A stretch of DNA of 23,581 nt, from positions 1-23,581 of the IMG/VR virus record IMGVR_UViG_3300037487_001646; one strand, 5' to 3'. Below the pieces are notes generated by a model. That model had not been told where the DNA came from, searched no databases, and saw only the letters and a program-made list of their open reading frames with translations. The position numbers were made by a program, and so were the translations under genes. Source of the DNA: a virus. This document shows positions 1 to 14,954 of this stretch, piece after piece; within the stretch, counting starts at the first letter, position 1, and every line of letters starts with the position of its first letter.

Positions 1-152
1 TCTGGCTTCGATGAAGCTGACAGCTTCGCTCCCGCTGCTATCTGAACCAGCAGACATGCTCCCGGGCTGGCTTTCCAGTCTGCCAACTGGTCAAAGCCTC
101 CCATTAGTCTGAAAGTGCTTCTGCCGGCCGCTCTGATGGCCGTCTCAAGTCC
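1..152. repeat. terminal direct repeat, left copy (circular junction)
   Basis: These bases match 23429-23581 at every position except one: the right copy has an extra C in the run after CAGCTT (near base 28 here). The overlap is what an assembler leaves at the ends of a circular or terminally redundant molecule, and gives a unit length of about 23,428 bp. The missing base breaks the helicase frame in this copy only, so this copy probably carries a contig-end error. Confidence 0.93.
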
Positions 153-1217
153 GTCTATCTCTGCCCTGAATCTACAGAAGATAACAAAACTTTCGTCCGT
201 CTCTGACAGCAGTTCGAGTATCGCGTCTATCTTTGCGGTATGACACTGCCGTGCTCTGTAATCGTGACCCCAATAGCCAGCCGTAACCTGTGAGAGTCTA
301 AGCTGTAGTGATAGTGCATTTGATACGGTCAGTTCCATGTCTCCGAGCATAGCTACTGATTCGTTCTCCAGTAACCTGTAAGCGTCCAAGACGTGCTTCG
401 GCAGCACAATAGGCACAACACAGTCTGTTATCTCTGGAAGTGCAGCTTCGCATACTGCCGGTTCAACGTGGTACGTGAACGATCCTAGTCTCTTGTTGAA
501 AACGTCCATGTTCTTATATCCTTGTATCTGCTTCGAGAGAAATGTAGGGAACTGCTTTCCGGTCCTAGCGTCTTGGCCTGATGGACCAAACACGCAAAAC
601 TCATCTTTGAAACGCTGCACGCTCGAACCGAACACGTTTGGGTCTATCGCTCTGCCTTGGGCGTAGATGTCTACAGGACCCTGTGACATCGGAGTGCCTG
701 AAAGGGCAATAACACGCTTCGCGTTTCTAGTTAGCAGGGCTGCCTTTCTTGATTGTATTCCCCCGGGTGCTTTCAGCCTGTGGGATTCATCGAATACGAT
801 GATGTCCCACGGCCGCATCTCCAGCAATTTTGCTGAAAGCACAGCGGACGACAGTGCCTCATAGTTCGTAGCTACGACCAATGTAGTCTCCAAGGTGAAC
901 GTCAACGGTCTCGACAGCATTTCTGCTCTGCAAGCACAGGACCCTGTGGAAAGCGGATAGAAAACATACTGGAAGTAGCTGTGTGCATACTTAGCAAACT
1001 CCTGCTCCCATACATTGTTGACCGCTTTCAGCGGGCAGATAATAAGAACCCGCATTCCGCAGGAAAGTCCTGATTTCACCGATTGTATGTAGTCTACGAT
1101 AATCCTACTCTTGCCACCTCCCATTGGAATCCAAAGCAATGAACCACGATGGTGGTGAATCCAAGCAAGAGCGTTAAGCTGATGCTCCCAGAGTGGCGGG
1201 CCAGACGTAGTGATCAT
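1..1217 (-). CDS. SNF2-family DNA helicase/translocase, 5' part (continues across the junction)
   Basis: Superfamily 2 ATPase expected to translocate on or remodel DNA during phage replication. The ATG at 1217 overlaps the stop of the upstream gene (ATGA). Translated across the join to 23581-23216, the protein has 476 residues. Visible motifs are Walker A MGGGKS (residues 32-37), DESH box (143-146) and SGTP motif III (173-176). The C-terminal helicase domain with the QSRKRIWRHGQ motif VI (422-432) lies at the other window end. The last ~26 bases of this copy are out of frame because of the one-base deletion in the terminal repeat; the right-hand copy is in frame. It sits just downstream of a VRR-NUC nuclease gene, a pairing known in phage replication modules. 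SNF2 family is clear from the motifs; the exact biological role is inferred. Confidence 0.93.
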   Translation of the reverse strand, partial: MITTSGPPLWEHQLNALAWIHHHRGSLLWIPMGGGKSRIIVDYIQSVKSGLSCGMRVLIICPLKAVNNVWEQEFAKYAHSYFQYVFYPLSTGSCACRAEMLSRPLTFTLETTLVVATNYEALSSAVLSAKLLEMRPWDIIVFDESHRLKAPGGIQSRKAALLTRNAKRVIALSGTPMSQGPVDIYAQGRAIDPNVFGSSVQRFKDEFCVFGPSGQDARTGKQFPTFLSKQIQGYKNMDVFNKRLGSFTYHVEPAVCEAALPEITDCVVPIVLPKHVLDAYRLLENESVAMLGDMELTVSNALSLQLRLSQVTAGYWGHDYRARQCHTAKIDAILELLSETDESFVIFCRFRAEIDGLETAIRAAGRSTFRLMGGFDQLADWKASPGACLLVQIAAGAKLSASSKP

Positions 1218-1669
1218 GGTTTGGTTTCCGTTCTGATTTCCCAGATGTTCCCGACATTGGACCGTTCTGCTTCCTGCGCTGCAACTGGTGCAGTGGCTAG
1301 TGCCCATGCCAAGAGGTTTTGCACTTCAGACCACCGTGTTTTGACGATAGACAAATTATACTGCACAGTAATCATTTCTTTGGAAATAGTTGACCTCTTG
1401 GATTCCAAAGCCAAGTACTCCGGGTCAATGTCTTGCAGTTCGTAAAGGCAAGCTGTCCTCATATCCACGTTTGAGTATAGAGGCTTCCCAGCTTCGTTCT
1501 TCAACAATGTTGTCTGGAACATTTGTTTGATGTTCCATCTGTCTACAGCAGTCTGTGCTTCTTCAAGTACGATTTTGAGCTCGCCAAGTTCCTTGGTCAT
1601 TACGTGTGAATCTCTGGCGATGTTACTCAGATTCAAGCATTCGTTAGCAAAGCATTCTGATAGTGTCAT
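1214..1669 (-). CDS. hypothetical phage coiled-coil protein, 151 aa
   Basis: Function unknown. The start at 1669 was chosen because it overlaps the stop of the preceding HTH gene (ATGA) and has an AAAGGA ribosome binding site; the longer in-frame extension to 1759 would lie inside that gene. The protein is mostly helical. It has heptad-like stretches around residues 25-45 and 85-115, with a DPEYLALES segment between them. This general look (short helical protein with a DPEY motif before a long helix) is seen in small phage accessory proteins encoded near recombination or helicase genes, but I cannot assign a family. Its stop overlaps the helicase start, so translation of the two is probably coupled. 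Confidence 0.75.
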   Translation of the reverse strand: MTLSECFANECLNLSNIARDSHVMTKELGELKIVLEEAQTAVDRWNIKQMFQTTLLKNEAGKPLYSNVDMRTACLYELQDIDPEYLALESKRSTISKEMITVQYNLSIVKTRWSEVQNLLAWALATAPVAAQEAERSNVGNIWEIRTETKP

Positions 1670-1926
1670 TGGGATTTTTCCTTTCTTACGTGCGGTCCTT
1701 TTGGACCTGATTGCAGTCTGCCTGTTCTTCCAACGGTAATCTGCCGTTCTTCCATCCAAGCGTAGAGTGTCTGTCTCGACACTCCAATATCACGGGCAAG
1801 CCGTGATACTCCCCCCCCGGCTTTTAGCCTGAGAAGAATCTTCTCCGAAAGATTCTCGAAGCCTTCTTGCAGGGCTTTGAGTTCCGCTCTGTGTTCGGAA
1901 ACACTCATTGGATATTCACGTTTCAT
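1666..1926 (-). CDS. small helix-turn-helix DNA-binding protein, 86 aa
   Basis: Predicted sequence-specific DNA-binding protein. The C-terminal half carries a clear helix-turn-helix: GVSRLARDIGVSRQTLYAWM (residues ~39-58), of the resolvase/transposase-OrfA or MerR-like type. It is followed by a basic tail rich in Arg, Lys and Gly. The start at 1926 has an excellent AAGGAGG site 8 bases upstream and overlaps the stop of the VRR-NUC gene (ATGA); the longer ORF reading from 1995 is not supported. It could regulate the early operon or bind the origin; nothing in the sequence decides between these. Confidence 0.78.
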   Translation of the reverse strand: MKREYPMSVSEHRAELKALQEGFENLSEKILLRLKAGGGVSRLARDIGVSRQTLYAWMEERQITVGRTGRLQSGPKGPHVRKEKSQ

Positions 1927-2243
1927 ATCAACACCTCCTTCCTGCAAGAGTCTAGAAACGCTATCGCTTCGGACGGTGAGTGCACAACACACCATTTCGC
2001 TCCCGCGTATTCCAGTTTGGGGATTCTGGATATTTGTATAGCAGACATTTCCCCGCCTGGATTCGATTTGCTCTTAGGTCGCTTCACTTCCATCTCAACA
2101 TACATTCCTCTGAAACATATAATCAAGTCGAATGTTCCGCTCGCGGAATATATCCCGCCGTGGTAGTTAGTCACAATCACATCTGCTCCGTATCGCTTCC
2201 GTATCGCCTGTATGATACGAGTCTGGATACCGCTCTCAAGCAC
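1923..2243 (-). CDS. VRR-NUC domain nuclease, 106 aa
   Basis: Stand-alone VRR-NUC (PD-(D/E)XK-type) nuclease, a metal-dependent DNA endonuclease family with Holliday-junction-like or flap-cutting members in phages. Visible signature: N-terminal E3 and Q7 helix, a GG-containing segment, then GTFDLI (residues ~36-41) and EMEVKRP (~50-56), which supply the catalytic Asp, Glu and Lys, followed by a Q-containing helix and an AGAKWCVV strand. The length of about 100 residues is usual for phage members. The start is GTG, overlapping the upstream stop by 8 bases. It lies two genes before the SNF2 helicase, consistent with a joint role in replication or recombination. Confidence 0.88.
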   Translation of the reverse strand: MLESGIQTRIIQAIRKRYGADVIVTNYHGGIYSASGTFDLIICFRGMYVEMEVKRPKSKSNPGGEMSAIQISRIPKLEYAGAKWCVVHSPSEAIAFLDSCRKEVLI

Positions 2244-2766
2244 TGCGTCTCGCCTGAAACGCTGTCATAGCGTCCCTGATGTATGAGCTAATATCTGGGT
2301 AGTCTGCCGCTTTCATATGCGCTATCATATTGTTATACTCCGAAATGGATAGTCGGCATCGAGCTATCCTCGGCCGTGAGTCCCCGGCGGAAGCCGATAG
2401 TGCATCTGAGAGTTTCAGTCCGCGCTCCTCGCACATCAAGCACACAGCAGATACGAAAGACGTGAACCCTGTAGCGATTGCACAAGCCTGCCTGATGACG
2501 TGCAGGTATTCCGTGAACGGTCTCCTGCGCTCGTGTAAAAGCTGTGCAATCACTGACCTGTAAGCAAGTGTAAGCTGGTCCTCGAAACCAGCGGACGTGC
2601 GCAGCGCCTCTCCGAGAAGTGCGTTTGCTACTATGCCTGAGCAAGGGAACGGACCAATGTAGTTAGCAAGAATCGAAGCATAGTAACCGCTTCTCGGTGC
2701 AACAAACTCGTATTCACTGAGCAACGGGTAAGCCGTCTGTAAGTCGCTAAGTCTAAGATCACTCAC
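2236..2766 (-). CDS. hypothetical protein with C-terminal ribbon-helix-helix-like segment, 176 aa
   Basis: Not recognised as a whole. I place the start at GTG 2766 because it overlaps the previous stop (GTGA) and has GGGAG seven bases upstream; a further 7 codons upstream are also open. The first ~120 residues are helical with several Cys and small residues. The last ~45 residues (from about RCRLSISEY to SSYIRDAMTAF) match the pattern of a ribbon-helix-helix fold: a basic strand, a helix with conserved hydrophobics, then a turn and the S-x-Y-I-R-D-A second helix typical of CopG/MobC-like DNA binders. I infer DNA binding by the C-terminus. What the N-terminal part does is unknown. Confidence 0.72.
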   Translation of the reverse strand: MSDLRLSDLQTAYPLLSEYEFVAPRSGYYASILANYIGPFPCSGIVANALLGEALRTSAGFEDQLTLAYRSVIAQLLHERRRPFTEYLHVIRQACAIATGFTSFVSAVCLMCEERGLKLSDALSASAGDSRPRIARCRLSISEYNNMIAHMKAADYPDISSYIRDAMTAFQARRSA

Positions 2767-2945
2767 TTTGGTTCTCCCTTCGGGCAATCGAAGCCGGGCA
2801 TTGGTAACAAGTAGTCTGGCGAAGGCTCTTTCACGATGTAAATCTCACTTCTAAGCATATGAGTCTCGTGAACAATGCTTTTCGCTCTGCTGTCCATCCA
2901 GCAGAAGGCTGCAAGCCAAAGAATGACAAAGATCAACAGTTTCAT
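2763..2945 (-). CDS. small membrane or exported protein, 60 aa
   Basis: The start at ATG 2945 has a strong GGAGG site 7 bases upstream. Residues 2-16 (KLLIFVILWLAAFCW) form a hydrophobic segment after a single Lys, which reads as a signal anchor or an uncleaved signal peptide. The remaining ~40 residues are polar and contain one Cys near the end. No family recognised. It is the first gene after a good sigma70-type promoter (2963-2992) and overlaps the next gene by GTGA. Possible roles include superinfection exclusion or a lysis accessory, but both are guesses. Confidence 0.72.
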   Translation of the reverse strand: MKLLIFVILWLAAFCWMDSRAKSIVHETHMLRSEIYIVKEPSPDYLLPMPGFDCPKGEPK

Positions 2946-2962
2946 GGTCCACCTCCATGTAT

Positions 2963-2992
2963 ATAGTAGCACAAACCCTTAACAGTTGTCAA
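2963..2992 (-). promoter_or_regulatory. sigma70-type promoter for the downstream part of the early operon
   Basis: On the minus strand a perfect -35 TTGACA (2987-2992) is followed, after 18 bases, by TACTAT (2963-2968, 4 of 6 to TATAAT), ending about 18 bases before the ATG at 2945. It lies in the only sizeable gap of the early operon (2946-3043). Confidence 0.62.
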
Positions 2993-3043
2993 GCGATATG
3001 TCAAGAGAAACCAGAGTGATATTGAAAATATCAACTTTAGTGC

Positions 3044-3325
3044 TCAATTTGCTTCCTCTCTATCTACCATTCTTAACTCAAGCTCATCTTCGATTGTAAG
3101 TATTTCACGGCATAAACACTGCATAGCACTCACGTGCATGACGATTTCCAGCGGGTCGATTATGTGGAGTATCGTCTGATTGTGGGCGTCGTAATCTGCC
3201 TCTAACTTTGCCATGCGTTCGTGTAATACTTTGCTTGGCTCTGCGCTGCGTGTATGGCTAAACGGGTCGAAGTTTGGCTCGTATTCGTAGACTGTATCTG
3301 TTGGCATTGTCTTTCGTGTTTTCAT
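3044..3325 (-). CDS. hypothetical protein, 93 aa
   Basis: No family recognised. The start at 3325 is supported by AAAGGA upstream and an ATGA overlap with the preceding gene's stop; the 199-residue reading frame starting at 3643 is only an open extension through two other genes. The protein has a polar, possibly disordered N-terminus with a YEYEPNFDPF segment, then a helical C-terminal half (from ~35) with two close Cys (70 and 72) and acidic residues. Soluble, probably a small accessory protein. Confidence 0.68.
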   Translation of the reverse strand: MKTRKTMPTDTVYEYEPNFDPFSHTRSAEPSKVLHERMAKLEADYDAHNQTILHIIDPLEIVMHVSAMQCLCREILTIEDELELRMVDREEAN

Positions 3326-3591
3326 GGCTGGTTCCTTTCTATCTGGTGCGTGTTCGCATAATTTGCGGCGTCCTCTGCTTCCGCTATCATACGGGTAATC
3401 TCTCGGTCGCCTATGCTGCCGATTAGCGAGGCCACCAGGCTTCCGATTACGAATAATACGAGCAAGTACTCCAGCATGGAGTATACCTGCCTGGCTCTCG
3501 GGCTTGCATATTTCCCGTTGCTGGTCGCCATCTTCCGGTCTAGCGTAAAGTGTCGCTTCCAGTGTTTGCTTTTTAGGCTCAATCGTTCCAT
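3322..3591 (-). CDS. small single-span membrane protein, 89 aa
   Basis: The start at 3591 has GGGAGG 6 bases upstream and overlaps the previous gene by 13 bases. The first ~38 residues are strongly basic (Lys/Arg-rich), followed by one transmembrane helix, roughly YLLVLFVIGSLVASLIGSIG (residues ~43-62). A short acidic/polar tail follows. By the positive-inside rule the basic N-terminus would face the cytoplasm. No family recognised. Such proteins in phage early regions can anchor replication complexes or block superinfection; the sequence does not say which. Confidence 0.7.
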   Translation of the reverse strand: MERLSLKSKHWKRHFTLDRKMATSNGKYASPRARQVYSMLEYLLVLFVIGSLVASLIGSIGDREITRMIAEAEDAANYANTHQIERNQP

Positions 3592-3779
3592 GATGTTCCT
3601 CCCGTGAGTGCGTGTATGTTGTCCATATATTCTTCGTAATCACGAATCTGGCGTACCTCGATTACATCTTCAATTAAGATTAGTCTGTATTTGTGGTCGA
3701 AGTCTCGCGCTCTGCGTCTCTTGTTCGCTTCTCTTTGCCACTGATTAACCTGTTCTTGTGTTACCACTATTTCTGCCAT
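3579..3779 (-). CDS. hypothetical basic protein, 66 aa
   Basis: The start at 3779 (MAEIVV) is preferred because AAAGGATGAG lies just upstream; an earlier in-frame start at 3815 would sit in the hairpin at 3795-3818. A helix with an Arg/Lys cluster (KRRRAR, residues ~20-25) is followed by a hydrophobic strand (RLILIEDVIEV) and a Tyr-rich acidic end. No family recognised. The basic cluster could contact nucleic acid. Confidence 0.65.
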   Translation of the reverse strand: MAEIVVTQEQVNQWQREANKRRRARDFDHKYRLILIEDVIEVRQIRDYEEYMDNIHALTGGTSWND

Positions 3780-3794
3780 TGTCTCATCCTTTCC

Positions 3795-3818
3795 GGCATG
3801 GCGCTTCCGCGCCATGCC
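3795..3818 (-). promoter_or_regulatory. RNA hairpin with GGAA tetraloop in the early transcript
   Basis: Perfect 10-bp stem GGCATGGCGC / GCGCCATGCC. In the minus-strand RNA the loop is GGAA, a GNRA tetraloop. It lies in the gap between two early genes and ends just before the ribosome binding site of the gene starting at 3779. There is no U-run, so it is unlikely to be a terminator; a stability or processing element is more likely. Confidence 0.6.
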
Positions 3819-3832
3819 TGGATAGTCCGGAA

Positions 3833-4237
3833 CTAGGAACCGAAACCACGAACAAGTAAAGCTGTCAACGTCTCAACCGAATTAGTCGAAAAGAAACCAG
3901 CAGGAAAGGGGTAGCATCTGGCCGGAATACCGGAAGCAGGCCTGCCTGCGATTGATACAATATACGAGCAATCAAGTAATCTGTGAATGCTTGTGTTCAC
4001 GGTCTCCAGCAGGCAGCAATCAAGCACAGTGCCTTGTTTCTGTGCTGTGTCCAATAGCACCCATTCCTCGGTTGTTCTGCAGTCGATATAACTTACAGGC
4101 TGCCGTTTATTCTCAGATACAAGGTCGGCTATTATTGCGATTCGCCTATCCTTGTAAGATTTCGCAATCGCTGCCGTTTGCGGTCGCGGGCTGTATCCGT
4201 TTGCTTTGGATGGAGGTTCTGAACGAGTGTTTTTCAT
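3833..4237 (-). CDS. hypothetical protein, first gene of the leftward early operon, 134 aa
   Basis: No family recognised. ATG 4237 has AAAGGT about 8 bases upstream. The N-terminal ~35 residues are basic and Pro/Ser-rich. The middle contains a CRTTEEWVLLDTAQ segment and a CC pair (about residues 74-75), and the C-terminus is rich in Gly, Pro and aromatic residues. It is the promoter-proximal gene of the early operon, the usual place for a phage regulator or host-takeover protein, but no DNA-binding motif is obvious. Confidence 0.65.
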   Translation of the reverse strand: MKNTRSEPPSKANGYSPRPQTAAIAKSYKDRRIAIIADLVSENKRQPVSYIDCRTTEEWVLLDTAQKQGTVLDCCLLETVNTSIHRLLDCSYIVSIAGRPASGIPARCYPFPAGFFSTNSVETLTALLVRGFGS

Positions 4238-4698: not shown

Positions 4699-4772
4699 AC
4701 ATAGGTGAATAATTACTAACAATCGAACATGCCATCTGCAAGATTCCCTAGCCATTGAGTTCATTCGACAAA

Positions 4773-4797
4773 GCAGAGTGATTCAATCACGGGAGTA
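4773..4797. repeat. 25-base direct repeat with palindromic core, copy 1
   Basis: Identical to 6187-6211. The core GTGATT-C-AATCAC is a perfect palindrome around one base. Weaker similarity continues upstream (CCTAGCCATTGA here, CCTTAGCCATTGA in copy 2), so the related region is about 57 bases. Confidence 0.8.
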
Positions 4798-4893
4798 TAA
4801 TTCCAGGGGAGAGTGAAATGCGAAAGCAGGAGTGATGATTGCACAGTTTCACCTACAATCGAAGTCACTCACTTACTGATTTCCTAAAGTATT

Positions 4894-4951: not shown

Positions 4952-5251
4952 ATGCCCGATGAATCTAAGGCGAAACCGCATTGCAAACAGTGCGGACGGT
5001 GCTGCAAGGTAATCGCAGCCTACTTCAAGTGGTCAGAGGAACAAGTGGAGTTCTTAGTGTCAAGACATATCAGACATTGGATAAGTGACCAGGCAGTCAT
5101 AGCGTTAATTCCTCACGTATGCCCAAACTTGGACGCAGAGAACAAATGCAAGTTACACGACAACGGAAAGCCCAAGGCCTGCTCGACGTTCCCGTCAGAT
5201 GATAGACATCCGTTACCCGGCTGTGCATACTACGAATCCAATGGAAAGTGA
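4952..5251 (+). CDS. YkgJ-family Cys-cluster (zinc/iron-chelating) protein, 99 aa
   Basis: Small metal-binding protein of the YkgJ/CxxCxxCC type, a family proposed to chelate zinc or iron. Visible ligands: CKQCGRCC (C11, C14, C17, C18), then C57, C66, H69, C77 and C91, the usual spacing of the family (C-P-x-L, C-x-x-H, P-x-x-C, C). Full length for a compact member. ATG 4952 has GGAG about 8 bases upstream and its own promoter candidate. It is the only confident rightward gene in the early intergenic region and stands alone, so it may be a lysogeny-conversion-type or host-modifying cargo gene; its role in the phage is unknown. Confidence 0.82.
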   Translation: MPDESKAKPHCKQCGRCCKVIAAYFKWSEEQVEFLVSRHIRHWISDQAVIALIPHVCPNLDAENKCKLHDNGKPKACSTFPSDDRHPLPGCAYYESNGK

Positions 5252-5563: not shown

Positions 5564-5608
5564 AGCAGAAACCTCCAGATACGAAATACTACATACAGAA
5601 TATCACAA

Positions 5609-5937
5609 TCGTTATTGCAAATGCAAGTAGGCTCGTTGTTTGCGGCAACGAGCGGAAGCCGTGGACGGTGAGTGCCGAAATGAGGCTTTGAAAAATATCG
5701 TCGTCCGAGGTTAGAATAACGACTTTTCGGGGGGTGTTGAGCTTGGAGTATATGAAAAACGCGTTATTGCTCAGGTTGAAATAACCTTTTTGGGGGCGGT
5801 GGTTTTGGGAGCCCGCCGGAGGCGGGCGTTTAATATATAGGACCTTTTTTTTGTCGTTTCGATTTATAATAACGATTGAGCTTGAGCATCTCGTTATTCT
5901 AACTCAAGCAACGATGACCTAAAATCACCTCGTTATT
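5609..5937. repeat. six CGTTATT repeats (iteron- or operator-like)
   Basis: The 7-mer CGTTATT occurs forward at 5609-5616, 5761-5768, 5891-5898 and 5930-5937, and reversed at 5715-5722 and 5868-5875 (8-base spans; five are TCGTTATT and one is GCGTTATT). The copies at 5715 and 5891 share the longer TCGTTATTCTAAC. Two copies (5868 and 5891) face each other. Confidence 0.65.
5811..5830. terminator. short GC-rich hairpin followed by GTTTAATAT
   Basis: Perfect 7-bp stem GCCCGCC / GGCGGGC with a GGA loop (5811-5827), followed by G and three T. It resembles a weak intrinsic terminator on the plus strand and lies among the CGTTATT repeats. Confidence 0.35.
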
Positions 5938-6090
5938 GTATTTTATGAGGGGAAATGGCAGTAAAAAGTGTCAAGAGGTAAAAAAAGTTGTTATTTCAAA
6001 TCGGAACGACAAAATTTTCCCTCTATATATATAAGCGTTGCTGACCGCTTGTGCATTCCTGACTTTCTGGCTCTCTTTCAGTCAAGAACA

Positions 6091-6192
6091 AGAGGCTTCG
6101 TGGGTGGGCGGGTGGGACGTACGCAGGTCGGTGTCTCGCGCAGCGTGTATACGACAATTTCCTTAGCCATTGACCCCTTCTTCCACGCAGAG
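6091..6192. repeat. ~102-base direct repeat carrying a G-quadruplex motif, copy A
   Basis: Nearly identical to 6327-6429; only a handful of differences. It begins AGAGGCTTCG, contains the G4 motif, then GTACGCAGGTCGGTGTCTCG, a GTGTATAC segment, and ends GCAGAG. The first ~30 bases recur again at 7556 and 8094-8128. Confidence 0.88.
6102..6116 (+). other. G-quadruplex motif 1
   Basis: Four GGG runs separated by single bases T, C, T. Single-base loops give the most stable parallel quadruplex class. Confidence 0.85.
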
Positions 6193-6211
6193 TGATTCAA
6201 TCACGGGAGTA
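6187..6211. repeat. 25-base direct repeat with palindromic core, copy 2
   Basis: Identical to 4773-4797 and overlapping the end of the copy-A repeat. The palindrome GTGATT-C-AATCAC lies in the middle. Confidence 0.8.
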
Positions 6212-6227
6212 AGATTCTGGGAGGCTA

Positions 6228-6312
6228 GTCAACGCAGGATAATCATAGTTATGTTATTGGCATTCTTTACCACCTGGCCGTTAACATAACGCGCAGATTA
6301 TCGTGCGTTGAC
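6228..6312. repeat. 85-base imperfect inverted repeat (hairpin 2)
   Basis: Outer arms GTCAACGCA / TGCGTTGAC; inward GATAATC / GATTATC and TTATGTTA / TAACATAA also pair, separated by short unpaired bulges, with a ~19-base loop. No coding capacity. It lies between the two G4-bearing direct repeats and has the same total length as the hairpin at 4614-4698. Confidence 0.75.
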
Positions 6313-6326
6313 GGTCGGCTATGCGC

Positions 6327-6429
6327 AGAGGCTCCGTGGGTGGGCGGGTGGGATTGTACGCAGGTCGGTGTCTCGCGCAGCGTGTATACGACAATTTCCT
6401 TAGCCATTGACCCCTTCTTCCAGGCAGAG
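6327..6429. repeat. ~103-base direct repeat carrying a G-quadruplex motif, copy B
   Basis: Second copy of 6091-6192. It ends in GCAGAG exactly at the left edge of the IS element. Confidence 0.88.
6338..6352 (+). other. G-quadruplex motif 2
   Basis: Same 15-base core as motif 1 (GGG runs with T, C, T loops). Confidence 0.85.
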
Positions 6430-7329
6430 TGGCCTGTACCCGTTTGTACGGGTACTTTGTTGCGCGGCTTTCACGACAGTCTGTAACTCGAACTGTGCTG
6501 GTGCCAAATATCCCAACGTCGAGTGCAGCCTGACCCTATTATAGAACACTTCGATGTATTCGAAGATGTCCCTTCTTGCCTCGATTCTGTTTCGATATAT
6601 TCGGTGATGAACTCGCTCGGTTTTGAGAGTCGAGAAGAAGCTCTCAGCTACCGCATTGTCCCAACAATTGCCCTTGCGGCTCATTGAGCATAGCATATTA
6701 TGCAGATTAAGAGCCGCCCGATAGTCATTGCTTGCGTATTGGCTGCCACGGTCCGAATGATGGATCAATCCTGGCCCAGGATTCCGTCGGCCAACAGCCA
6801 TAGATAAAGCGTCCATTACCAGACCACGATCAATCCGTTCACTCATCGACCAGCCCACCACCATACGCGAGTGCAGGTCAATTACTGCGGCCAGATACAG
6901 CCAACCCTCCATTGTCCAGATATAGGTGATATCAGAAACCCACACCTTGTTTGGTCCCGCAGAAAAGAACTCCCGAGCTAGCAGATTCTCAGCCACAGAA
7001 AAACTGTGCTTAGAATCTGTCGTTATTCGATACTTACGCTTACGTTTGGCCTTAATGCCACACTTGCGCATCAGACGCGCCACCCTGTTGAGCGAGCAAC
7101 TCTCACCATCAGCAAGCAATTGGCGATGAATCCGCCGGACACCGTAGGTCCCACCTGCTGCCTCATAAATACATTTGACCTCGTCGATGATGCGGGCATC
7201 GTCAATTTCACGATTACTGGGCCCGCGTCCCGACCAGGCATAGTAGCCACTCGGTGATACATTCAACACACGACAGGCGCTCTCCACATGAAACTCATTA
7301 CAATGATCTTGCACGAAGCCGTATCTCAC
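6400..7329 (-). CDS. IS3-family transposase OrfB (DDE catalytic subunit), 309 aa
   Basis: Catalytic half of an IS3-family transposase, which cuts and rejoins DNA using a DDE triad in an RNase H fold. Visible: N-terminal HTH_21-like region (CRVLNVSPSGYYAW and GTYGVRRIHRQL), first Asp in WVSDITYI, second Asp in HHSDRGSQY, Glu in WDNAVAESFFSTLK, then the usual YNRVRLHSTLGYLAP end. It starts at GTG 7329, overlapping the OrfA stop. A -1 frameshift at the A7G run (7358-7365, minus strand) would fuse OrfA to OrfB, as is normal in this family. Odd: the stop codon lies outside the element, and the last 9 residues are read from the neighbouring phage DNA. Confidence 0.95.
   Translation of the reverse strand: MRYGFVQDHCNEFHVESACRVLNVSPSGYYAWSGRGPSNREIDDARIIDEVKCIYEAAGGTYGVRRIHRQLLADGESCSLNRVARLMRKCGIKAKRKRKYRITTDSKHSFSVAENLLAREFFSAGPNKVWVSDITYIWTMEGWLYLAAVIDLHSRMVVGWSMSERIDRGLVMDALSMAVGRRNPGPGLIHHSDRGSQYASNDYRAALNLHNMLCSMSRKGNCWDNAVAESFFSTLKTERVHHRIYRNRIEARRDIFEYIEVFYNRVRLHSTLGYLAPAQFELQTVVKAAQQSTRTNGYRPLCLEEGVNG
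6430..6462 (+). repeat. IS terminal inverted repeat, left
   Basis: Pairs with 7523-7555; about 25 of 33 positions match, including CCTGTACCCGTTT. Confidence 0.88.
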
Positions 7330-7523
7330 TTCGATTCCTTCGCAAAGAACGCCGTTGCTTTTTTTAGAATGTTACGCTCCTCGCGCAGAACTCTGTTCTC
7401 ACGACGCAGCCGGATCAGTTCTTCGTGCTCATCAGGCGTAAGCGATGTGCCATGGGAGTTTGTCCCAAACTTCTTTATCCAATCATACACAACACTATCG
7501 CTTATACCCAGATCCCTAGCCAC
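7326..7523 (-). pseudogene. IS3-family OrfA, 5'-truncated
   Basis: Remnant of the DNA-binding subunit. The reading frame begins in the middle of the helix-turn-helix (VARDLGISDSVVYDWIKKFG) and continues through the leucine-zipper-like region (LIRLRRENRVLREERNILKK). IS3 OrfA proteins are normally about 90-100 residues and start with a helix before this point. Here the inner edge of the right inverted repeat joins directly to the HTH codons, so roughly the first 30-35 codons and the usual leader are gone. The A7G slippery run (7358-7365) is intact. I infer that the element can no longer make a normal OrfA or OrfAB, although initiation at GTG 7523 cannot be excluded. Confidence 0.82.
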
Positions 7524-7555
7524 AACAAAGTCTCCATGGAAACGGGTACAGGTCA
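7523..7555 (-). repeat. IS terminal inverted repeat, right
   Basis: Inverted match of 6430-6462. Its inner end abuts the truncated orfA. Confidence 0.88.
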
Positions 7556-7565
7556 GAGGCTCCGT

Positions 7566-7580
7566 GGGTGGGCGGGCGGG
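7566..7580 (+). other. G-quadruplex motif 3
   Basis: Four GGG runs with loops T, C, C, immediately right of the IS, in a third partial copy of the repeat. Confidence 0.85.
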
Positions 7581-8113
7581 ATTGTGCCCGGCTCCTGACG
7601 TGTCCTGCGTTTCATATCGTTTTTGCCACCCAGTCTCTTTGCCTTGCCGTCTCTGCTATCACTTTGGTGTGACTAGACGTTGCTGTCTCAGAATCGCATC
7701 CTACGCGGTCATTGAGCGTGGATGATTGTACATCTTCGCAAGTTGCGCAGCAACGAGGCGAAACACTGGTCGTATTTCGTTAAACCTTGGTGTATCGCGC
7801 AGCGTGAATAAGAAAAGCTGGAGCAGAGCGGAAGTCTCCGCATATCATGGGAGGGGCAAGGCGGCATCCTGAGCGAGGAACGAGGCGAAGGGCCGACGGG
7901 GCCGGGGGTAGGGGGGCTGGCCAGCGGAGGAATCGGAGCGGGGAGGCCCCCCGTATTCGCGCGGTGCATCAGCAAAGGGCAATAACAAAGCTATATCGCG
8001 CGCCTTTCGGCGAAGAAGCCCAGCCCGACGGGCGCACAACCGACGAAGGAGGGAAGCCCAGCGGGCAGGGCGACTGAGCCGCCAGTCTTGCGGTCAAGAA
8101 CAAGAGGCTTCGT

Positions 8114-8128
8114 GGGTGGGTGGGTGGG
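8114..8128 (+). other. G-quadruplex motif 4
   Basis: Four GGG runs with T loops. The 20 bases to its left match those left of motif 1 (GTCAAGAACAAGAGGCTTCG). Confidence 0.85.
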
Positions 8129-8208
8129 AAGCACAAAAGTGAGAAGTCTAGTCCAGGACAAACCAAGCCAACAAGTCTAGTCGTCAACAAACAAAGGCTT
8201 GGACCCAA

Positions 8209-8262
8209 GGGCTGCTGGCTGCCCTGCGCGCCGCTCTCCGCGCGCAGGGCAGCCAGCAGCCC
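8209..8262. repeat. perfect GC-rich hairpin 1 with CGCTCTCC loop
   Basis: The arms 8209-8231 and 8240-8262 are perfectly complementary over 23 bp, beginning GGGCTGCTGG and ending CCAGCAGCCC, with an 8-base loop CGCTCTCC. CCAAGGGCTGC precedes the loop on the 5' side, as in hairpin 2. Confidence 0.92.
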
Positions 8263-8346
8263 GAAGGGCGTCAACACCAACTACCAAACAATACCACAAC
8301 GCCCACAAACAACAGTGGGAACAACGAATAGGAGCCAACCAACCAA

Positions 8347-8401
8347 GGGCTGCGGTGCTGCCCCCCGCCCCGCTCTCCGGCGGGGGGCAGCACCGCAGCC
8401 C
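8347..8401. repeat. perfect GC-rich hairpin 2 with the same loop
   Basis: The arms 8347-8369 and 8379-8401 are perfectly complementary over 23 bp, beginning GGGCTGCGGT and ending ACCGCAGCCC. The loop region reads CCGCTCTCC, and both hairpins share CCGCTCTCCG. Stem sequence differs from hairpin 1 in its inner two-thirds, always with both arms changed together. Confidence 0.92.
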
Positions 8402-9028
8402 GCCGGTCTAGTAGCAGCTTGGTCGCCGAAAAACGGGCTTGGTCAACAGTAACAGGCTTGCTGTCTAAAAATAACAGGCTTGCTTCAGATGGCAAGGGAG
8501 GCCGAATCTAACATTGCCCTGCAATAGAAACTCACTGCCGACCGCGCAGTTATCAGTCGAACATCAGCCAAAGCGCTTCGTCTTTCTACGTGCCCACCTG
8601 TTTGCAAACCACGCTGTACACCAGCGGAGTTGCGTAGCAACGGAGCTGTCTGCCGTCTTTCGGTCTAGTACACACACAGGCACGAACGCCTTTGGGCAAG
8701 CAAGTGGTTGTTGCCAGTGAGTGCCGGTCGCTGCCGCGTCATTGCTGTCTGTCTAGTGAATATGTTTGTTTGTTCATTGTTTGTTCATTGTTTGTTCATT
8801 GTTTATTCTTGTTGTTTGTTCTGGTTCTTTGTTCTTGATTGTTGTTGTTGTTGTTATATGTTTGTTTGTTCTTTGTTTGTTCTTTGTTTGTTAATCTTTT
8901 ATTCTTTTGTTTGTTTGTTTGTTGTTGTTAATTTGTTTGTTTCTTTTCTTCTTGTTCCGTGTTTTGTTCTCTCTTTTTTTTTTCCCCTTTATGCCGCCCC
9001 GAGAATTATTGCCATTTCGTTTTGAAAG
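8402..9028. other. gene-free leader region upstream of the late operon
   Basis: No credible gene. The open frame at 8708-9025 encodes only Cys/Phe/Leu/Val-rich sequence because the DNA is a TTTG/TTG repeat. Strand composition switches from AC-rich (about 8150-8345) to GT-rich (about 8755-8965). The heptamer GTCTAGT recurs at 8406, 8663 and 8751 here, and at 8146 and 8175 just upstream. No clear sigma70 promoter was found in front of the terminase genes. Confidence 0.6.
8755..8990. repeat. GT-rich low-complexity tract with tandem 11-mers
   Basis: GTTTGTTCATT is repeated three times exactly (8768-8800), and GTTTGTTCTTT 2.6 times (8864-8892). The rest is irregular TTTG/TTG/TGTT. The tract ends about 40 bases before the small terminase gene. 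Confidence 0.85.
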
Positions 9029-9580
9029 TTGTATGATGTTGTCGTTATGCGCAGGTCAAAGGATTTGGTTTCTCCGATTTTCAAGCGTGCTGAAACTGAG
9101 GTCCGTATGTGGGATGCTCGGATGAAGGATATGTCTGACGTTGAGATATCTGATTTGGTTGGCTTGAGTGTTGGTGTTGTTCGCAGTTCTCTGGCTTCTA
9201 TGCTGCGTCGTATTTCTTCTGAGGGCAATTTAATTGCTCGTAGTTGGGCTGTCCGTGAGACTGTTTTGTTATTTCAGGACATTTACTCACCTGCTGAGGT
9301 TCTGTGGCGTGAGTCTGGTGATCCTCGTTATGCTGAGTTGATGCGTGGTGCATTGTCTGACATTCGCAAGATTTGGGGTGTTGATGCGCCCCAGCGTGTG
9401 CAGACATTGAGTGTTCACGTTGGAGTTATGGACAGTGAGTTGGGGAGGTTAAGTGTCGATGAGCTTAGAATGCTCCGTGGAATGTTCCCGGGTGATTCCG
9501 GCGGGTGTGACGGCGGAGTCGATCCGTCTGGCTCTGGCTTACCGGAGCTTCCCGGATTATTGTCGGTTAGTAACCCCTGA
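9029..9580 (+). CDS. terS: putative terminase small subunit, 183 aa
   Basis: Proposed DNA-recognition subunit of the packaging motor, placed by position directly before the large subunit. An HTH-like segment, DVEISDLVGLSVGVVRSSLA (residues ~37-56), fits the DNA-binding domain of small terminases; the middle is helical and the C-terminus is Gly/Pro/Ser-rich. The start is uncertain: TTG 9029 or ATG 9047, neither with a good ribosome site, which is unusual in this genome. It overlaps the large-subunit gene by more than 100 bases in another frame. Codon use is T/G-rich, continuing the upstream composition. No sequence-level family match is claimed; the call rests on HTH and position. Confidence 0.65.
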   Translation: MYDVVVMRRSKDLVSPIFKRAETEVRMWDARMKDMSDVEISDLVGLSVGVVRSSLASMLRRISSEGNLIARSWAVRETVLLFQDIYSPAEVLWRESGDPRYAELMRGALSDIRKIWGVDAPQRVQTLSVHVGVMDSELGRLSVDELRMLRGMFPGDSGGCDGGVDPSGSGLPELPGLLSVSNP

Positions 9581-10976
9581 CTGGGTAGATGCTCCTCACT
9601 TGGATTATTTGTGCAGTCGTGCGGAGTTGGTTGCGTCTCGTGATATTCGTCGTTTGATTATCAACATTCCCCCTGGTTACGCTAAGTCTTGGATTTTCTC
9701 CCGTTGTTTTTCTTCTTGGTATTTGATGCGTTATCCTGCTCGTGAGTTTATGCTTTTGAGTTACGGTGATGATTTGGCTATTGAGCACAGTTCCGCTGCT
9801 CGGTCGATGTTTAGTATTTTTTCGCCTCTGATTACTGGTGCTGGTATGTCTCGCGATAGCAAAAGCGTAAGCCGTTGGATGGTTGACGTGGGTTCTGGCG
9901 GTCGCGGCGGTGGTATGATGGCTTGTGGGATTGGTTCTTCTGTCACTGGCCGCCGTGCTGATGTGATTGTGGTAGATGACCCGTTCAAGAACTGGGAAGA
10001 GGCTAATTCCGAGGTGGCTCGGGAAAAGGTTTGGGATGCTTACCGGTCTGTGATTCGGAGTCGTTTGCGTCCAAAGGGTTGTATTGTTGTTATCCAGACG
10101 CGCTGGCACAAGGATGACTTGACTGGCCGTTTGTTAGATCACGAGGGTGGTATGAAGTGGGAACACGTAAAGTTACCGGCTCGTGCTTTGGAGAATGATT
10201 TGTTAGGCCGTGATATTGGAACGCCATTATGGCCTGAAATGTATGACGATGCTGAGTTGACTGAGGTTGAGGGTGATATTGGTCCTGTTTTCTGGGCTTG
10301 CGAGTTCCAGCAGGAGCCAGAGGAGCCAAAGGGTCGGTTTTTCAAGTCTGACTGGTTCCGTTATTTTCACACTGACGGCGATTACTTTGTTCTGGGTGCT
10401 GATGTCGGTGACATTCGTTACCACAAAGATGAGTGTGTGATTGTGCAGACGATTGACCCGGCTTCGACTGAGGAGTCTCGGAATGACTTTTTCTGTCAGT
10501 GTGCCTGGGTTTTGTGTCCGTCTGGTGAGATTGGTCTGCTGGCGGTCCAGCGTGAGCATATAGCAACGACTGAGCATATAGATGACATCATATCATTCAA
10601 CGAGAAGTATAGTGCAGCTTGGATTTGCGTAAGCAAGCGGGCTGCTGGGTTGAATCTGTTCCAGCAGTTGGATGATATGGGTTTTGCTCTGGAGGAGATT
10701 GTCGAGGATGTGTCCAAGTTATCACGATCTTTGGTTATCATGCGTAAGTATCGTCGCGGTGAGGTGTATCATTTACGTGATGCTCCGTGGATTTTCGCCA
10801 TTGAATCGGAGTTGAAGTCATTTCCGGGCGGCAAGAATGATGACTTTGTTGACAATGCTTCTGCGATAGGTATACAATCGTCGCAGATAGGCTTATGTGG
10901 TTCTGAGGCGGTCGAAGCATTCGGACAGAGCAGAAAGGGCAGTAGTTATGGGCTGGAATCTGTTTTCATTCGGTAA
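9453..10976 (+). CDS. terL: terminase large subunit (packaging ATPase/nuclease), 507 aa
   Basis: Motor that pumps DNA into the prohead and cuts concatemers. Visible: Walker A PPGYAKS (residues 73-79), Walker B VIVVDDP (171-177), motif III/coupling QTRWHKDD (215-222), and nuclease-domain acidic residues in LGADVGD (D317) and near GGKNDDFVDNAS in the C-terminus, the last being the usual third metal ligand region. Length is typical. The start is GTG 9453 or ATG 9459, after GGGGAGG; the deep overlap with the previous gene is odd but the sequence before Walker A looks genuine. It overlaps the portal gene by 29 bases. Confidence 0.95.
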   Translation: MSMSLECSVECSRVIPAGVTAESIRLALAYRSFPDYCRLVTPDWVDAPHLDYLCSRAELVASRDIRRLIINIPPGYAKSWIFSRCFSSWYLMRYPAREFMLLSYGDDLAIEHSSAARSMFSIFSPLITGAGMSRDSKSVSRWMVDVGSGGRGGGMMACGIGSSVTGRRADVIVVDDPFKNWEEANSEVAREKVWDAYRSVIRSRLRPKGCIVVIQTRWHKDDLTGRLLDHEGGMKWEHVKLPARALENDLLGRDIGTPLWPEMYDDAELTEVEGDIGPVFWACEFQQEPEEPKGRFFKSDWFRYFHTDGDYFVLGADVGDIRYHKDECVIVQTIDPASTEESRNDFFCQCAWVLCPSGEIGLLAVQREHIATTEHIDDIISFNEKYSAAWICVSKRAAGLNLFQQLDDMGFALEEIVEDVSKLSRSLVIMRKYRRGEVYHLRDAPWIFAIESELKSFPGGKNDDFVDNASAIGIQSSQIGLCGSEAVEAFGQSRKGSSYGLESVFIR

Positions 10977-12216
10977 TAGGCTTCCCCGTGAGGATGTTGG
11001 CAGGGATGTAAGTGTTGGCGGTAGTTTATCTGGTTATCAGAATCCTGATGACTTGATTGGCGCAAAGGGTATCGAGGTTTATGACACGATGAGCAGGAAC
11101 GCTCAAGTGTCTGCTTGTCTGTCTATAAAGCGGGCTTCCGTGTTATCCCGTGGTTGGGATGTGGGTGTTGGCGAGAAGTCCAATGGTGTTCGCGAAGAGG
11201 TTGTTGAGTTCTGCAAGTATGTATTCGAGTGGATGGACGGCAGTTTGTTTGGTGTGCTTGAGAATGTCTGTGATGCTCTGGCGAAGGGTTATTCCATACA
11301 GTCTCTTGTATGGGATAACATAGAATCCGGTAAGTTCAAGGGCAATGTTGCCCCCCGCTACATTTATGCAAAGGACCCTGCTGATTGGCAGTTCATCGTA
11401 GATGACTACCGGCACGTCACGGGTTTGCTTCACACTCCGACGAGTGAACGCTTCTCCCGCTCTGGTTTCGTCGTTTTCACTTACCGCGGGATTTACGGGA
11501 ATCCTTACGGGTATTCTGACCTTAGGAATTGTTACCGTAACTGGTGGAGCGTGGATTTTCTGGAGCGGTTCTGGAATATGTATATGGAGAAGTTTGGCGC
11601 ACCAACGGTCAAGGGAACGTATAAGCGGGGCTTATCTGCCGCTGCGAAAGCCACCTTTATGTCTGCGCTGTCTGCTGTGCAATCTAAGTCTGCTCTGGTT
11701 TTCCCCGAAGATATGAAAGTGGAATTGTTGGAAACAATTCGGCAGGGTGAATCTGGATTCCGTCTTGCTACGGAATATCACAACAAGCAGATAGCCAAGT
11801 CTATTCTCAACCAGACTTTGGTGACTGATTCCGGCGGTGGAGTCGGTTCTTTTGCTATGGCGAAGGTGCATTTGGATGTGCTTCGGATGTGTTTGCGTGG
11901 CTTGAAGCAGGATTTGGAAGAAACTGTTGTCAGGGAACAGATTCTTCGCCCTTTGGTCGCTGCAAACTACGGAGCAGATGAGCCGGTCCCGATATTCACT
12001 CTCGGACCATTGGAAGATCGCGAAATCGAACCGCTGTCTCGGGCTGCTGGCAATATTGTCACGGCTGGGATTCTTGACCCTGCTGATCCGTGGTTCCGCG
12101 AGTTCCTTGGAATCTCTGGTGGAGGAAAGTCTCCAGCGAAGCCGGAGGCTGGTCCGACCGTAACTAGGACAAGGGTTGATGGCAATACCAACGATGCAAG
12201 TGTAAAGGTGGGTTGA
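10948..12216 (+). CDS. DUF935 (Mu gp29-like) portal protein, 422 aa
   Basis: Forms the dodecameric ring through which DNA enters and leaves the capsid. The segment around YDTMSRNAQVSACLSIKRAS and the following GWDV, the FGNPYGYSDLR-like region (IYGNPYGYSDLRNCYRNWW) and the KFGAPTVKGTY stretch are characteristic of the Mu gp29/DUF935 family. ATG 10948 is preferred over the longer GTG/ATG reading from 10897 because AAAGGG lies about 8 bases upstream. The C-terminal ~30 residues are Pro/Thr/Lys-rich and probably disordered. Family members are usually 420-520 residues, so this is a compact but complete copy. Confidence 0.92.
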   Translation: MGWNLFSFGNRLPREDVGRDVSVGGSLSGYQNPDDLIGAKGIEVYDTMSRNAQVSACLSIKRASVLSRGWDVGVGEKSNGVREEVVEFCKYVFEWMDGSLFGVLENVCDALAKGYSIQSLVWDNIESGKFKGNVAPRYIYAKDPADWQFIVDDYRHVTGLLHTPTSERFSRSGFVVFTYRGIYGNPYGYSDLRNCYRNWWSVDFLERFWNMYMEKFGAPTVKGTYKRGLSAAAKATFMSALSAVQSKSALVFPEDMKVELLETIRQGESGFRLATEYHNKQIAKSILNQTLVTDSGGGVGSFAMAKVHLDVLRMCLRGLKQDLEETVVREQILRPLVAANYGADEPVPIFTLGPLEDREIEPLSRAAGNIVTAGILDPADPWFREFLGISGGGKSPAKPEAGPTVTRTRVDGNTNDASVKVG

Positions 12217-12217
12217 T

Positions 12218-13012
12218 ATGCCGACAAGTATAACGCACGAAGATATAAAGCCAAGGATGTGTATTCCGCTGGCCACCACCACGTATGACACCGAGCTTGA
12301 TACAATTTGCACTGGTGTCGGGGCGGGTGTTGACGGTGCTGCTGGCACTGCTCCTGCTGCTTTGCTCAAGGAAGCTGCCATAATGATTGCTGCAGGCACT
12401 GCTTGGATTGGTATGGCGAATCGTCCCGGCTATGCTGAGTCTTTTGTCGCTGTCGGTGTAACGGTCGGCGGGATGAACAAAGATGGGGCTATTGACCTTG
12501 TAAAGACTGGCTGGCAGATATTGCTCCCGTATTGTGGGCAGAAGGTGGCTGCTGAGGCTGCCGAGGCAGCTTTTGCCGCTGCTCTGGCTGCTGCCCGTGA
12601 TGATGATGTCGCTGCACAGGCTGACGCTGAGTTGCTCAAGCTGCAGAATGAGGCTGGTGAGTCCGGTTCCCGCAAGCTGCTTTTGGATTCACAGGAGTTG
12701 AAAACTGACGCAGAGAAGCTGCTTGTGGATGCTCAGACTGCGATTGCTGTCTCTGAGGAGTTGAGAATTGATGCTCTGACAGCTTTGCTGGTCAAAGAGG
12801 CACTGACCGAAGTAGAAAAGGCTCTTGGTGTCGTTGCGTCAGCTGCTTTGTCTACAGCTTTGAGTCTGGAGTCTGCGCAGCGGACCGCTGCAAAGACTAT
12901 AGAGGTTACTCGTCTAACGAGGGCAGAAACACTGGTGGACGATTCCGCAGAGTGTGATTCTACCACTGATGACTATTTGTTTACTATGACTTCCGGGGAG
13001 TATACGAGATGA
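12218..13012 (+). CDS. possible head-tail connector (adaptor) protein with long Ala-rich helical domain, 264 aa
   Basis: Placed right after the portal, the usual place for the first connector (adaptor) protein. The N-terminal ~100 residues (ITHEDIKPRM..., YDTELDTICTG..., LLKEAAIMIAA) fit the helical pattern of gp6/gp15-like adaptors. Residues ~110-240 are extremely rich in Ala, Glu, Leu and Asp, with repeated AEAA, KLLLDSQELKTDAEKLLVDA and related motifs: a long coiled coil or helical bundle not found in normal adaptors, which are about 100-120 residues. The ribosome site is AAGGTGGG. It ends in an ATGA overlap with the next gene. The adaptor call is inferred; a scaffold-like or fibre role for the long helical part is possible. 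Confidence 0.6.
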   Translation: MPTSITHEDIKPRMCIPLATTTYDTELDTICTGVGAGVDGAAGTAPAALLKEAAIMIAAGTAWIGMANRPGYAESFVAVGVTVGGMNKDGAIDLVKTGWQILLPYCGQKVAAEAAEAAFAAALAAARDDDVAAQADAELLKLQNEAGESGSRKLLLDSQELKTDAEKLLVDAQTAIAVSEELRIDALTALLVKEALTEVEKALGVVASAALSTALSLESAQRTAAKTIEVTRLTRAETLVDDSAECDSTTDDYLFTMTSGEYTR

Positions 13013-13338
13013 GTCTACTCACTGACCGTTTTGATGCTGGCATTGACAGGCTTGGTGAGAGCATAACTTGGACAAAGTTGAACGGTTCCGCTGGTAGTTT
13101 TGCTCATAACTGCATAGTTCGTCCGGCTGAATCCGGTTTGCTGAATACGTTTTTTGATATCATAGAGTTGTCTGCGTTTGGTCGTCCGGTAGTGATTGTA
13201 ATAGTTAAGGCTGCTGTGACTGCAAAGGCTGCTGATACATTTACCCGCGATTCCGTGGCTTGGAGATGTGAGCGGGTGTTTACTCTGCGATTAAGTAACG
13301 AGGCTATTGGAAAGTATGTTCTGATGAGTCAGGTGTAA
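13009..13338 (+). CDS. possible head-completion/stopper protein, 109 aa
   Basis: Follows the adaptor candidate, where tailed phages place the head-closure (stopper) protein. It begins MSLLTDRFDAGIDRLGESITWTKL and continues with alternating beta strands (RPVVIVIVKA, WRCERVFTLRLS), matching the length and general beta-barrel pattern of stopper or head-tail joining proteins, which often start with a short helix then an ITWT-like strand. Overlap ATGA with the upstream gene and GGGGAG ribosome site. The family is not firmly recognised; position and fold pattern are the evidence. Confidence 0.6.
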   Translation: MSLLTDRFDAGIDRLGESITWTKLNGSAGSFAHNCIVRPAESGLLNTFFDIIELSAFGRPVVIVIVKAAVTAKAADTFTRDSVAWRCERVFTLRLSNEAIGKYVLMSQV

Positions 13339-13339
13339 T

Positions 13340-13837
13340 ATGAGAAAACTGTCTAATGGTTTAGAATACAAAGAGAAAGACACTCCGAACATAAGTATTC
13401 GTAAGTCTCGTCCTTCTGTTGTCGTTCTGCACCATACCGGCGGTCTCGGTCTAGGTAACGTGGCGTGGCTGTGCAGTCCGCACAGCAAAGTATCTGCCGA
13501 TTGGTATATTTCACGGGCTGGGTCTATCTGGAAGCTGAATCCTCAGATAGCAACGTATTATACTTGGCACTGCGGAGTCAGTAAGTTCCTCACTTACAAG
13601 GATGTCAATCCTGTAAGTATCGGCATTGAGCTTGAGCATGTGCCAGGGCAGGATTGGCCTGAAAGCCAGATCAAGGCTTGCCATTTGGTTTGTGAGTTTA
13701 TGATGACTAGGTTTTCCAAGATCACTATTGACCGTATCGTCGGCCACAAAGATATTGCTCTGCCTGTGGGCAGGAAGAATGACCCCGAAGGTTTTCCGTG
13801 GGTATTATTTCGCAAACTGTTCACAGGAGGTGATTGA
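13340..13837 (+). CDS. N-acetylmuramoyl-L-alanine amidase endolysin, 165 aa
   Basis: Zinc amidase of the T7-lysozyme/AmpD (Amidase_2) type that cuts the bond between muramic acid and the peptide of peptidoglycan, freeing progeny phage. Zinc ligands are visible: H31 or H32 in VVLHHTGG, H136 in IVGHKDIA and D148 in GRKNDPEGFPW. SIGIELEH (residues 93-100) supplies the conserved Glu strand. No signal peptide and no separate cell-wall-binding domain, so it needs a holin for export; a holin-like gene follows immediately. Unusually, it sits inside the head gene cluster between connector and protease genes. Confidence 0.94.
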   Translation: MRKLSNGLEYKEKDTPNISIRKSRPSVVVLHHTGGLGLGNVAWLCSPHSKVSADWYISRAGSIWKLNPQIATYYTWHCGVSKFLTYKDVNPVSIGIELEHVPGQDWPESQIKACHLVCEFMMTRFSKITIDRIVGHKDIALPVGRKNDPEGFPWVLFRKLFTGGD

Positions 13838-14077
13838 GTGCATGATTATGAAACAGTGGTCATTGCAGCATTGGGCGGGTTTCTGGGGATGGCTACGGCG
13901 CTTGGTTATGGGTTCAAGACACTCGTGGATGTCGTGTCGAAGCAGTTAGCTGTGCAGAATGATAGTATAAAGACAATCCAGCACGGGATGGCTGCTGACT
14001 TAAAAAAGCACATTGATGACTGCTCCCATTGCAGAAACAGAATTGATAGGTGGGAAAATGATCGAACGAGAAGCTAA
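13838..14077 (+). CDS. putative holin-like single-span membrane protein, 79 aa
   Basis: GTG start directly after the amidase stop, with an almost consensus AGGAGGTGAT ribosome site. One transmembrane helix near the N-terminus (residues ~7-26, rich in Ala, Gly and Leu), then a hydrophilic coiled-coil tail with a DCSHC motif (C62, C65) and a charged end. Size, topology and pairing with the endolysin suggest the holin or a related lysis membrane protein; the CxxC is unusual for a holin. It overlaps the protease gene by 20 bases. Confidence 0.62.
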   Translation: MHDYETVVIAALGGFLGMATALGYGFKTLVDVVSKQLAVQNDSIKTIQHGMAADLKKHIDDCSHCRNRIDRWENDRTRS

Positions 14078-14939
14078 GTTGTTCGAGGCTGGAGATTATC
14101 CAGATAGAGATATTACATTCACTGGAGCCGATCTTGATGCGGTTATAGCTGGATTCAAGGTAGGGCAGAAGATTCCAATAAAAATTGGACATTCTGATAC
14201 GCCGTTTGACGGCCTACTGGGTCAAGTGACTAGGCTGTGGAGGGTTGGCTCTAGTCTGATGGGAACGCTATCTTTTCCGGAACATGTATGGGATTTTCTG
14301 GAAAAGATGAACACCAAGAAGTTGTCGGTTGGTTTTGACAGGCTTTCTAGGAGAATCAAGGAGGTCTCCATAGTATCTCATCCGCGCATATTGACAGCTC
14401 GGGTATTTAGTGATACAGTTTCAGGGAACGTAGTGTTCGAGGATAAGTGGGATGATGTCAGAGGAGGTGCTAAGTTGAACGAGTTCAGTGCAGAAGTAGT
14501 TACACTTATGAAAGCGGAGCGTGAAGCTGGTCGCGCTGAGGGTCAGGCTGCTGCCGAGACGCAGTTCGAGGCAAGAGTATCTTCAATCGCGAGAGAGAAC
14601 GCTGAAATGAAGCGTCTTTCGGCATTAGACGAGGCAGACAAGAAGATACTCGGCTGGAAAGCTGAGGGTAAACTCACTCCGGCTGCTGAGAAGTATGCTC
14701 AGGCTATTCTTGTGGACGGTAACGCCGAAGTTACGTTCTCTGATGGCGGGCATATGAAAGTGAGTGAGTCGTTCGTGCAGTTCATGCTTCACCAGAGCGC
14801 AATGCTCAATATGGTCAAGGGAACGCCGGAAGTTCCAGCAGACACCACGAGCGAAATCGACAAGCAGGTCTACGCTCTGCTCGGAGTTACTCCTGAGCAG
14901 GTGGCTGAAGCCGACAAAGAAATCAAAGACGCGAAGTAA
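14058..14939 (+). CDS. prohead protease with C-terminal scaffold-like region (Mu gpI-like), 293 aa
   Basis: Capsid maturation protease fused to scaffold. The N-terminal domain (~1-140) shows the pattern of phage head proteases: FEAGDYPDRDITFTGADLDA, IPIKIGHSDTPFDG with the likely catalytic His, KKLSVGFDRL with the likely Ser, and KEVSIVSHPRILTARVF. Residues ~160-293 are helical and charged (AEREAGRAEGQAAAETQFEA onward), as expected for an internal scaffold; Mu makes its scaffold from the same gene. ATG 14058 with AGGTGGG is preferred over the longer reading frame from 14013, which overlaps the holin-like gene. Lies just before the capsid genes. Confidence 0.85.
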   Translation: MIEREAKLFEAGDYPDRDITFTGADLDAVIAGFKVGQKIPIKIGHSDTPFDGLLGQVTRLWRVGSSLMGTLSFPEHVWDFLEKMNTKKLSVGFDRLSRRIKEVSIVSHPRILTARVFSDTVSGNVVFEDKWDDVRGGAKLNEFSAEVVTLMKAEREAGRAEGQAAAETQFEARVSSIARENAEMKRLSALDEADKKILGWKAEGKLTPAAEKYAQAILVDGNAEVTFSDGGHMKVSESFVQFMLHQSAMLNMVKGTPEVPADTTSEIDKQVYALLGVTPEQVAEADKEIKDAK

Positions 14940-14954
14940 AGGAGGAACAGACAA

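Follow-up and report, generated by a model that had tools for sequence, protein, structure and literature searches.

Four copies of a potential G-quadruplex box in the non-coding control hub of a small uncultured phage, with a possible link to local recombination

To our knowledge, functional quadruplexes are few in bacteria and phages. Bacteria and phages carry dispersed, non-coding repeats of the REP/BIME type, and the mitochondrial CSBII is a hybrid G-quadruplex (G4). The pilE G4 of Neisseria gonorrhoeae requires an sRNA whose start lies within the quadruplex (PMC3547852), and mitochondrial priming proceeds from an R-loop originating at an upstream promoter (PMC6317783). Here we analysed a window of 23,581 bases, i.e. 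the whole of a virus contig, in which a box with three-tetrad, short-loop G4 potential at the sequence level recurs four times.

Like the pilE G4, the phage box is non-coding, G-rich and, at the sequence level, capable of three tetrads with short loops, and it is linked to recombination. Unlike pilE, where an sRNA promoter starts in the G4 and a G4 is served by many silent donor copies, the phage has four boxes, and in the hub, the part covered by the repeat searches, every repeat is short and non-coding and no variable gene with donors was seen; a sigma70 scan detected no plus-strand promoter at 5717-9009 and none beside any box, although the host's promoter type may differ. The analogy to the Neisseria pilin quadruplex drawn in the sequence-only reading of this DNA thus failed on the points examined, neither an adjacent sigma70-like promoter nor silent donors of a variable gene being found. 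The box would resemble CSBII in that a G-rich, presumably non-template strand follows a putative promoter within the control region of a small circular genome, and differs in being repeated and missing from the contig of the sole syntenic relative. With REP/BIME repeats it shares its shortness, repetition, non-coding location and an insertion sequence (IS) at one copy, whereas the phage boxes are direct, same-strand, devoid of a palindrome and confined to one 2-kb hub. A quadruplex box at the rearrangement junctions of a phage control region would offer a compact natural test of G4-caused recombination.

Genome setting and sequence of the boxes

The first 152 bases recur at the contig end (1-152 versus 23429-23581, 99.3% identity, with one indel that puts the helicase gene at the start of the contig out of frame), so the contig is in effect a near-complete circular genome of ~23.4 kb from a small uncultured phage, its record carrying no circular flag. 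Supported genes run leftward at 1-4237 and 18176-23533, where they include genes for a primase/polymerase-like protein, a UvrD/Dda-like helicase and a further helicase-like protein, the last gene being divided between the two contig ends. Those at 9029-18107 run rightward and comprise the small-terminase position, large terminase, Mu-like portal, protease, Mu gpT-like capsid and amidase. The boxes sit in a non-coding hub of ~3.5 kb (5564-9028), with early genes running leftward on one side and the terminase-portal-head operon running rightward on the other, and no database-supported gene lies over any box on either strand (Table 1). The gene at 4952-5251 encodes a CxxCxxCC zinc/iron-chelating domain and is kept in the relative L020 with 39% identity.

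Table 1. Features of the hub and its surroundings in the window
Feature	Position	Strand	Remarks
AATAACG/CGTTATT cluster, n=6	5606-5940	both orientations	clustered in L020 too
TATATATATAAG box	6022-6033	+	counterpart TATATAAAG in L020; putative rightward promoter
Left flank of box 1	6074-6091	+	common to box 4 only
30-aa ORF	6170-6081	-	MAKEIVVYTLRETPTCVRPTRPPTKPLVLD; begins MAKEIVVYTLRETPTC...; good ribosome-binding site
Box 1	6092-6117	+	GAGGCTTCGTGGGTGGGCGGGTGGGA
76-nt segment right of box 1	6119-6194	+	99% identical to 6356-6431
Box 2	6328-6353	+	GAGGCTCCGTGGGTGGGCGGGTGGGA
76-nt segment, second copy, right of box 2	6356-6431	+	end interrupted by IS
IS transposase ORF	6400-7329		domains rve, HTH_21
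IS3-family insertion sequence	6430-7555	-	ends TGRCCTGTACCCGTTT; target duplication GAG
Box 3	7556-7581	+	GAGGCTCCGTGGGTGGGCGGGCGGGA; opens with GAG, one of the copies of the IS target duplication
Fifth G4 candidate, longer loops	7890-7916	+	GGGCCGACGGGGCCGGGGGTAGGGGGG; top G4Hunter score in window
Left flank of box 4	8086-8103	+	common to box 1 only
Box 4	8104-8129	+	GAGGCTTCGTGGGTGGGTGGGTGGGA
Two perfect hairpins, 23-bp arms	8208-8402	+	8209-8262, 8347-8401
Late operon start	9029-12216	+	9029-9580 (small-terminase position), large terminase 9453-10976, Mu-like portal 10897-12216

By exact pattern search of the window, (GGGN)3GGG was found at 6102, 6338, 7566 and 8114, on the plus strand only, and in none of 100 dinucleotide shuffles, which confirmed four same-strand motifs with the same preceding sequence as first noticed; each is preceded by GAGGCTTCG or GAGGCTCCG, then T, and a 26-nt unit is common to all of them (GAGGCTYCGTGGGTGGGYGGGYGGGA). 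The four motifs are paralogous copies of a single box and not of independent origin, so chance has to be judged for a single origin followed by duplication; one (GGGN)3GGG arose in 0.1-0.7% of runs when the hub was simulated by Markov models, which speaks for a real motif. Variation of the loop bases, as claimed in the sequence-only reading, was found in loops 2 and 3, loop 1 being T in four of four boxes. Its further claim that the GGG runs are kept while the loops vary is right in that no G run is changed in any copy and falls short of significance, with only three variable sites among 25 aligned positions and none of them within G runs (chance ~0.12). The same-strand placement holds as well and carries little weight: G tracts and C tracts occur at densities of 30.7:8.2 per kb in the box-bearing hub, compared with 12.8:3.7 for the late genes, and these ratios are nearly equal, thus the strand of the boxes is that of the whole late region. 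The fifth G4 candidate, on the same strand and overlooked in the sequence-only reading, exceeded all four boxes in G4Hunter score.

Box edges as homology breakpoints

Pair-wise comparison of the flanks revealed that homology between any two copies begins or ends at the box edge, without exception. Copies 1 and 2 are identical at 0.92 over 25 nt on the right and at 0.40 on the left, while copies 1 and 4 share their left flank (0.76) and not the right one (0.36), against a flank background with a median of 0.32, a 95% point of 0.44 and a 99% point of 0.56; the other copy pairs fall inside this background, with at most a few shared bases outside the box. Since homology breaks at its edges, the box appears to be the rearrangement junction, and the flank pattern reads as the footprint of rearrangement at the box, not of gradual divergence. 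Identity of 99% on one flank and none on the other argues for discrete events. This gives indirect support to the earlier suggestion of a recombination signal; ordinary short-repeat recombination with no quadruplex role could equally place junctions at the box, and strong selection on the box combined with fast flank turnover could look similar.

An IS separates box 2 from box 3. It has a rve/DDE transposase (orfB in the coding search), imperfect terminal repeats TG..CA, here TGGCCTGTACCCGTTT and TGACCTGTACCCGTTT, and a target duplication of the 3-4 bp expected, conforming to the IS3 family. The duplicated GAG is formed by the first three bases of box 3, so the IS inserted at a box edge, and with the IS removed the second 76-nt copy leads into box 3 directly.

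The hub in the closest relative

Among the relatives sought by portal, capsid and terminase profiles, only L005 and L020 were close, and L020 (IMG/VR 3300009285_005074, 24,914 bases) was the sole syntenic relative found; its shared proteins are mostly 45-70% identical, a few lower, and its contig ends fall within the same hub. L020 lacks the box, and its one match to (GGGN)3GGG is a G17 run at the contig end, where the hub breaks off and part of it may be missing. The contig begins with AGAC and this run (1-21), at the hub position of the boxes and ~1.2 kb upstream of the small-terminase-position gene, to be compared with 0.9 kb for box 4, which is suggestive, though at a contig end; the run may be a real G tract at which assembly stopped. 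In the collections searched, neither the box pattern nor that of the 76-nt segment had any match in viral contigs, hub part 6060-6430 had none in phages and 7556-8140 none in plasmids, and no sequence combined kept flanks with broken GGG runs. Two box-pattern matches in genome contigs, one a poly-G run and one a GC-rich sequence, were set aside as chance, as were 19 flank-pattern matches in viral contigs, none of them followed by G runs. An AGGCTT motif common to both hubs was dropped as weak.

Other hub features are common to both genomes. Six of the eight AATAACG/CGTTATT copies in the window fall within 330 nt (5610-5937) and all five of L020 within its hub (cluster at record 23989-24505), being candidate iterons or operators. 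In both, the cluster is followed by a TATATAA box, a candidate promoter that in the window precedes box 1 by ~60-70 nt. Hairpins whose arms reach 15 bp or more, with no more than one mismatch, are GC-rich, near-perfect and almost confined to the non-coding hub in both genomes: two of three in the window, before the late operon, and four of four in L020 (305-691 and record 24370-24417), with different sequences and a like architecture. Because they are hub-located in both genomes while their sequences differ, selection on the hairpin fold itself is suggested. An Rfam search returned nothing at gathering score, weak miRNA-type matches being mostly hairpins, and RNA folding of 6085-6440 was not clearly better than that of shuffles (z -1.45). 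The AATAACG cluster, the TATATAA box and the hairpins are better candidates than the G4 box for the working parts of the hub.

Readings of the box

We favour, at a little under even confidence, the reading that a single 26-nt non-coding box of the late-operon control region gave rise to all four G4 motifs, being copied by local duplication and recombination with box-sited junctions in a probably transcribed region, G4/R-loop formation perhaps adding breakage. The hub would be transcribed rightward from the TATATAA region, in which case the G-rich strand would be both the non-template and the RNA strand; R-loop/G4 formation, or plain repeat-mediated recombination, could then cause breaks and template switches, by which boxes would be copied and shuffled. 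Counted against this reading are the small number of copies, four in a single genome, the failure of the sigma70 scan to detect a plus-strand promoter at 5717-9009, and some chance that the assembly of this repeat-rich region is chimeric. No phage use of the box is needed to explain the data, and origin, packaging and antigenic-variation roles are unsupported. It is improbable, in our estimate, that the box acts as a quadruplex recombination element, activated by transcription, with which the phage rearranges its control hub or starts replication there, much as an equivalent in phages of the pilE or CSBII quadruplexes would.

A neutral origin, in which a (GGGT)4-like repeat expanded by slippage in tolerant non-coding DNA and was carried along by segmental duplications, is unlikely but deserves serious weight: the hub contains further simple repeats, among them TTTGTTCATTG and runs of TTTG at 8760-8960, L020 has its G17 run, and the retention of GGG is non-significant, but the non-repetitive GAGGCTYCGT half is kept together with the G runs in all four copies, each in a different context. 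If the box is neutral, it calls for caution, as G4 motifs that recur in a single genome are then copies and do not count as independent evidence. Every box reads in the late-operon direction, downstream of the conserved motif cluster and the TATATAA box in a hub abundant in long hairpins, as a regulatory leader would have it, with G4s in the RNA or non-template strand pausing or anti-terminating RNA polymerase until a phage factor acts; yet L020 lacks the box despite keeping the remaining layout, and in its ratio of G tracts to C tracts the hub matches the late genes, which makes a leader quite unlikely.

The missing box in L020 also bears on replication and packaging. An origin with AATAACG as iterons or operators and with R-loop RNA at the box priming replication, as at CSBII, would fit the clustering of this motif in both hubs, the cumulative GC-skew minimum near 7.5 kb and the primase/polymerase-like and helicase genes of the phage; however, the skew minimum tracks gene orientation and the DnaA box TTATNCACA is absent from the window and L020, and we regard this role as doubtful. 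That the boxes form a pac/cos signal for the small terminase subunit, whose gene comes next downstream, is very improbable even though they lie 0.9-2.9 kb upstream of the small-terminase-position gene, because L020 does without the box while its large terminase is ~68% identical, and the contig overlap speaks for circularity, not for a packaging type. Scarcely credible, too, is the box as a coding by-product, whose complementary strand would encode the PTxPPTKPLVLD tail of a small peptide: GAAGGGGTCA-ATG precedes the 30-aa ORF, its start recurs in copy 2 (at 6407) and copy 4 keeps PTHPPTKPLVLD in frame, whereas the frame shifts across the box in copy 2, the start is missing from copies 3 and 4, and L020 offers no convincing counterpart. 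The start of the ORF is, we assume, reminiscent of a glutaredoxin-like protein.

Besides the boxes, a repeat is present at 4744-4803 and 6159-6217 (TTCCYTAGCCATTGA...GCAGAGTGATTCAATCACGGGAGTA), and its second copy, read on the minus strand, shows a palindrome ahead of a sequence that resembles a ribosome-binding site and start (ATGGCTAAGGAA), as though the leader of a small gene had been duplicated.
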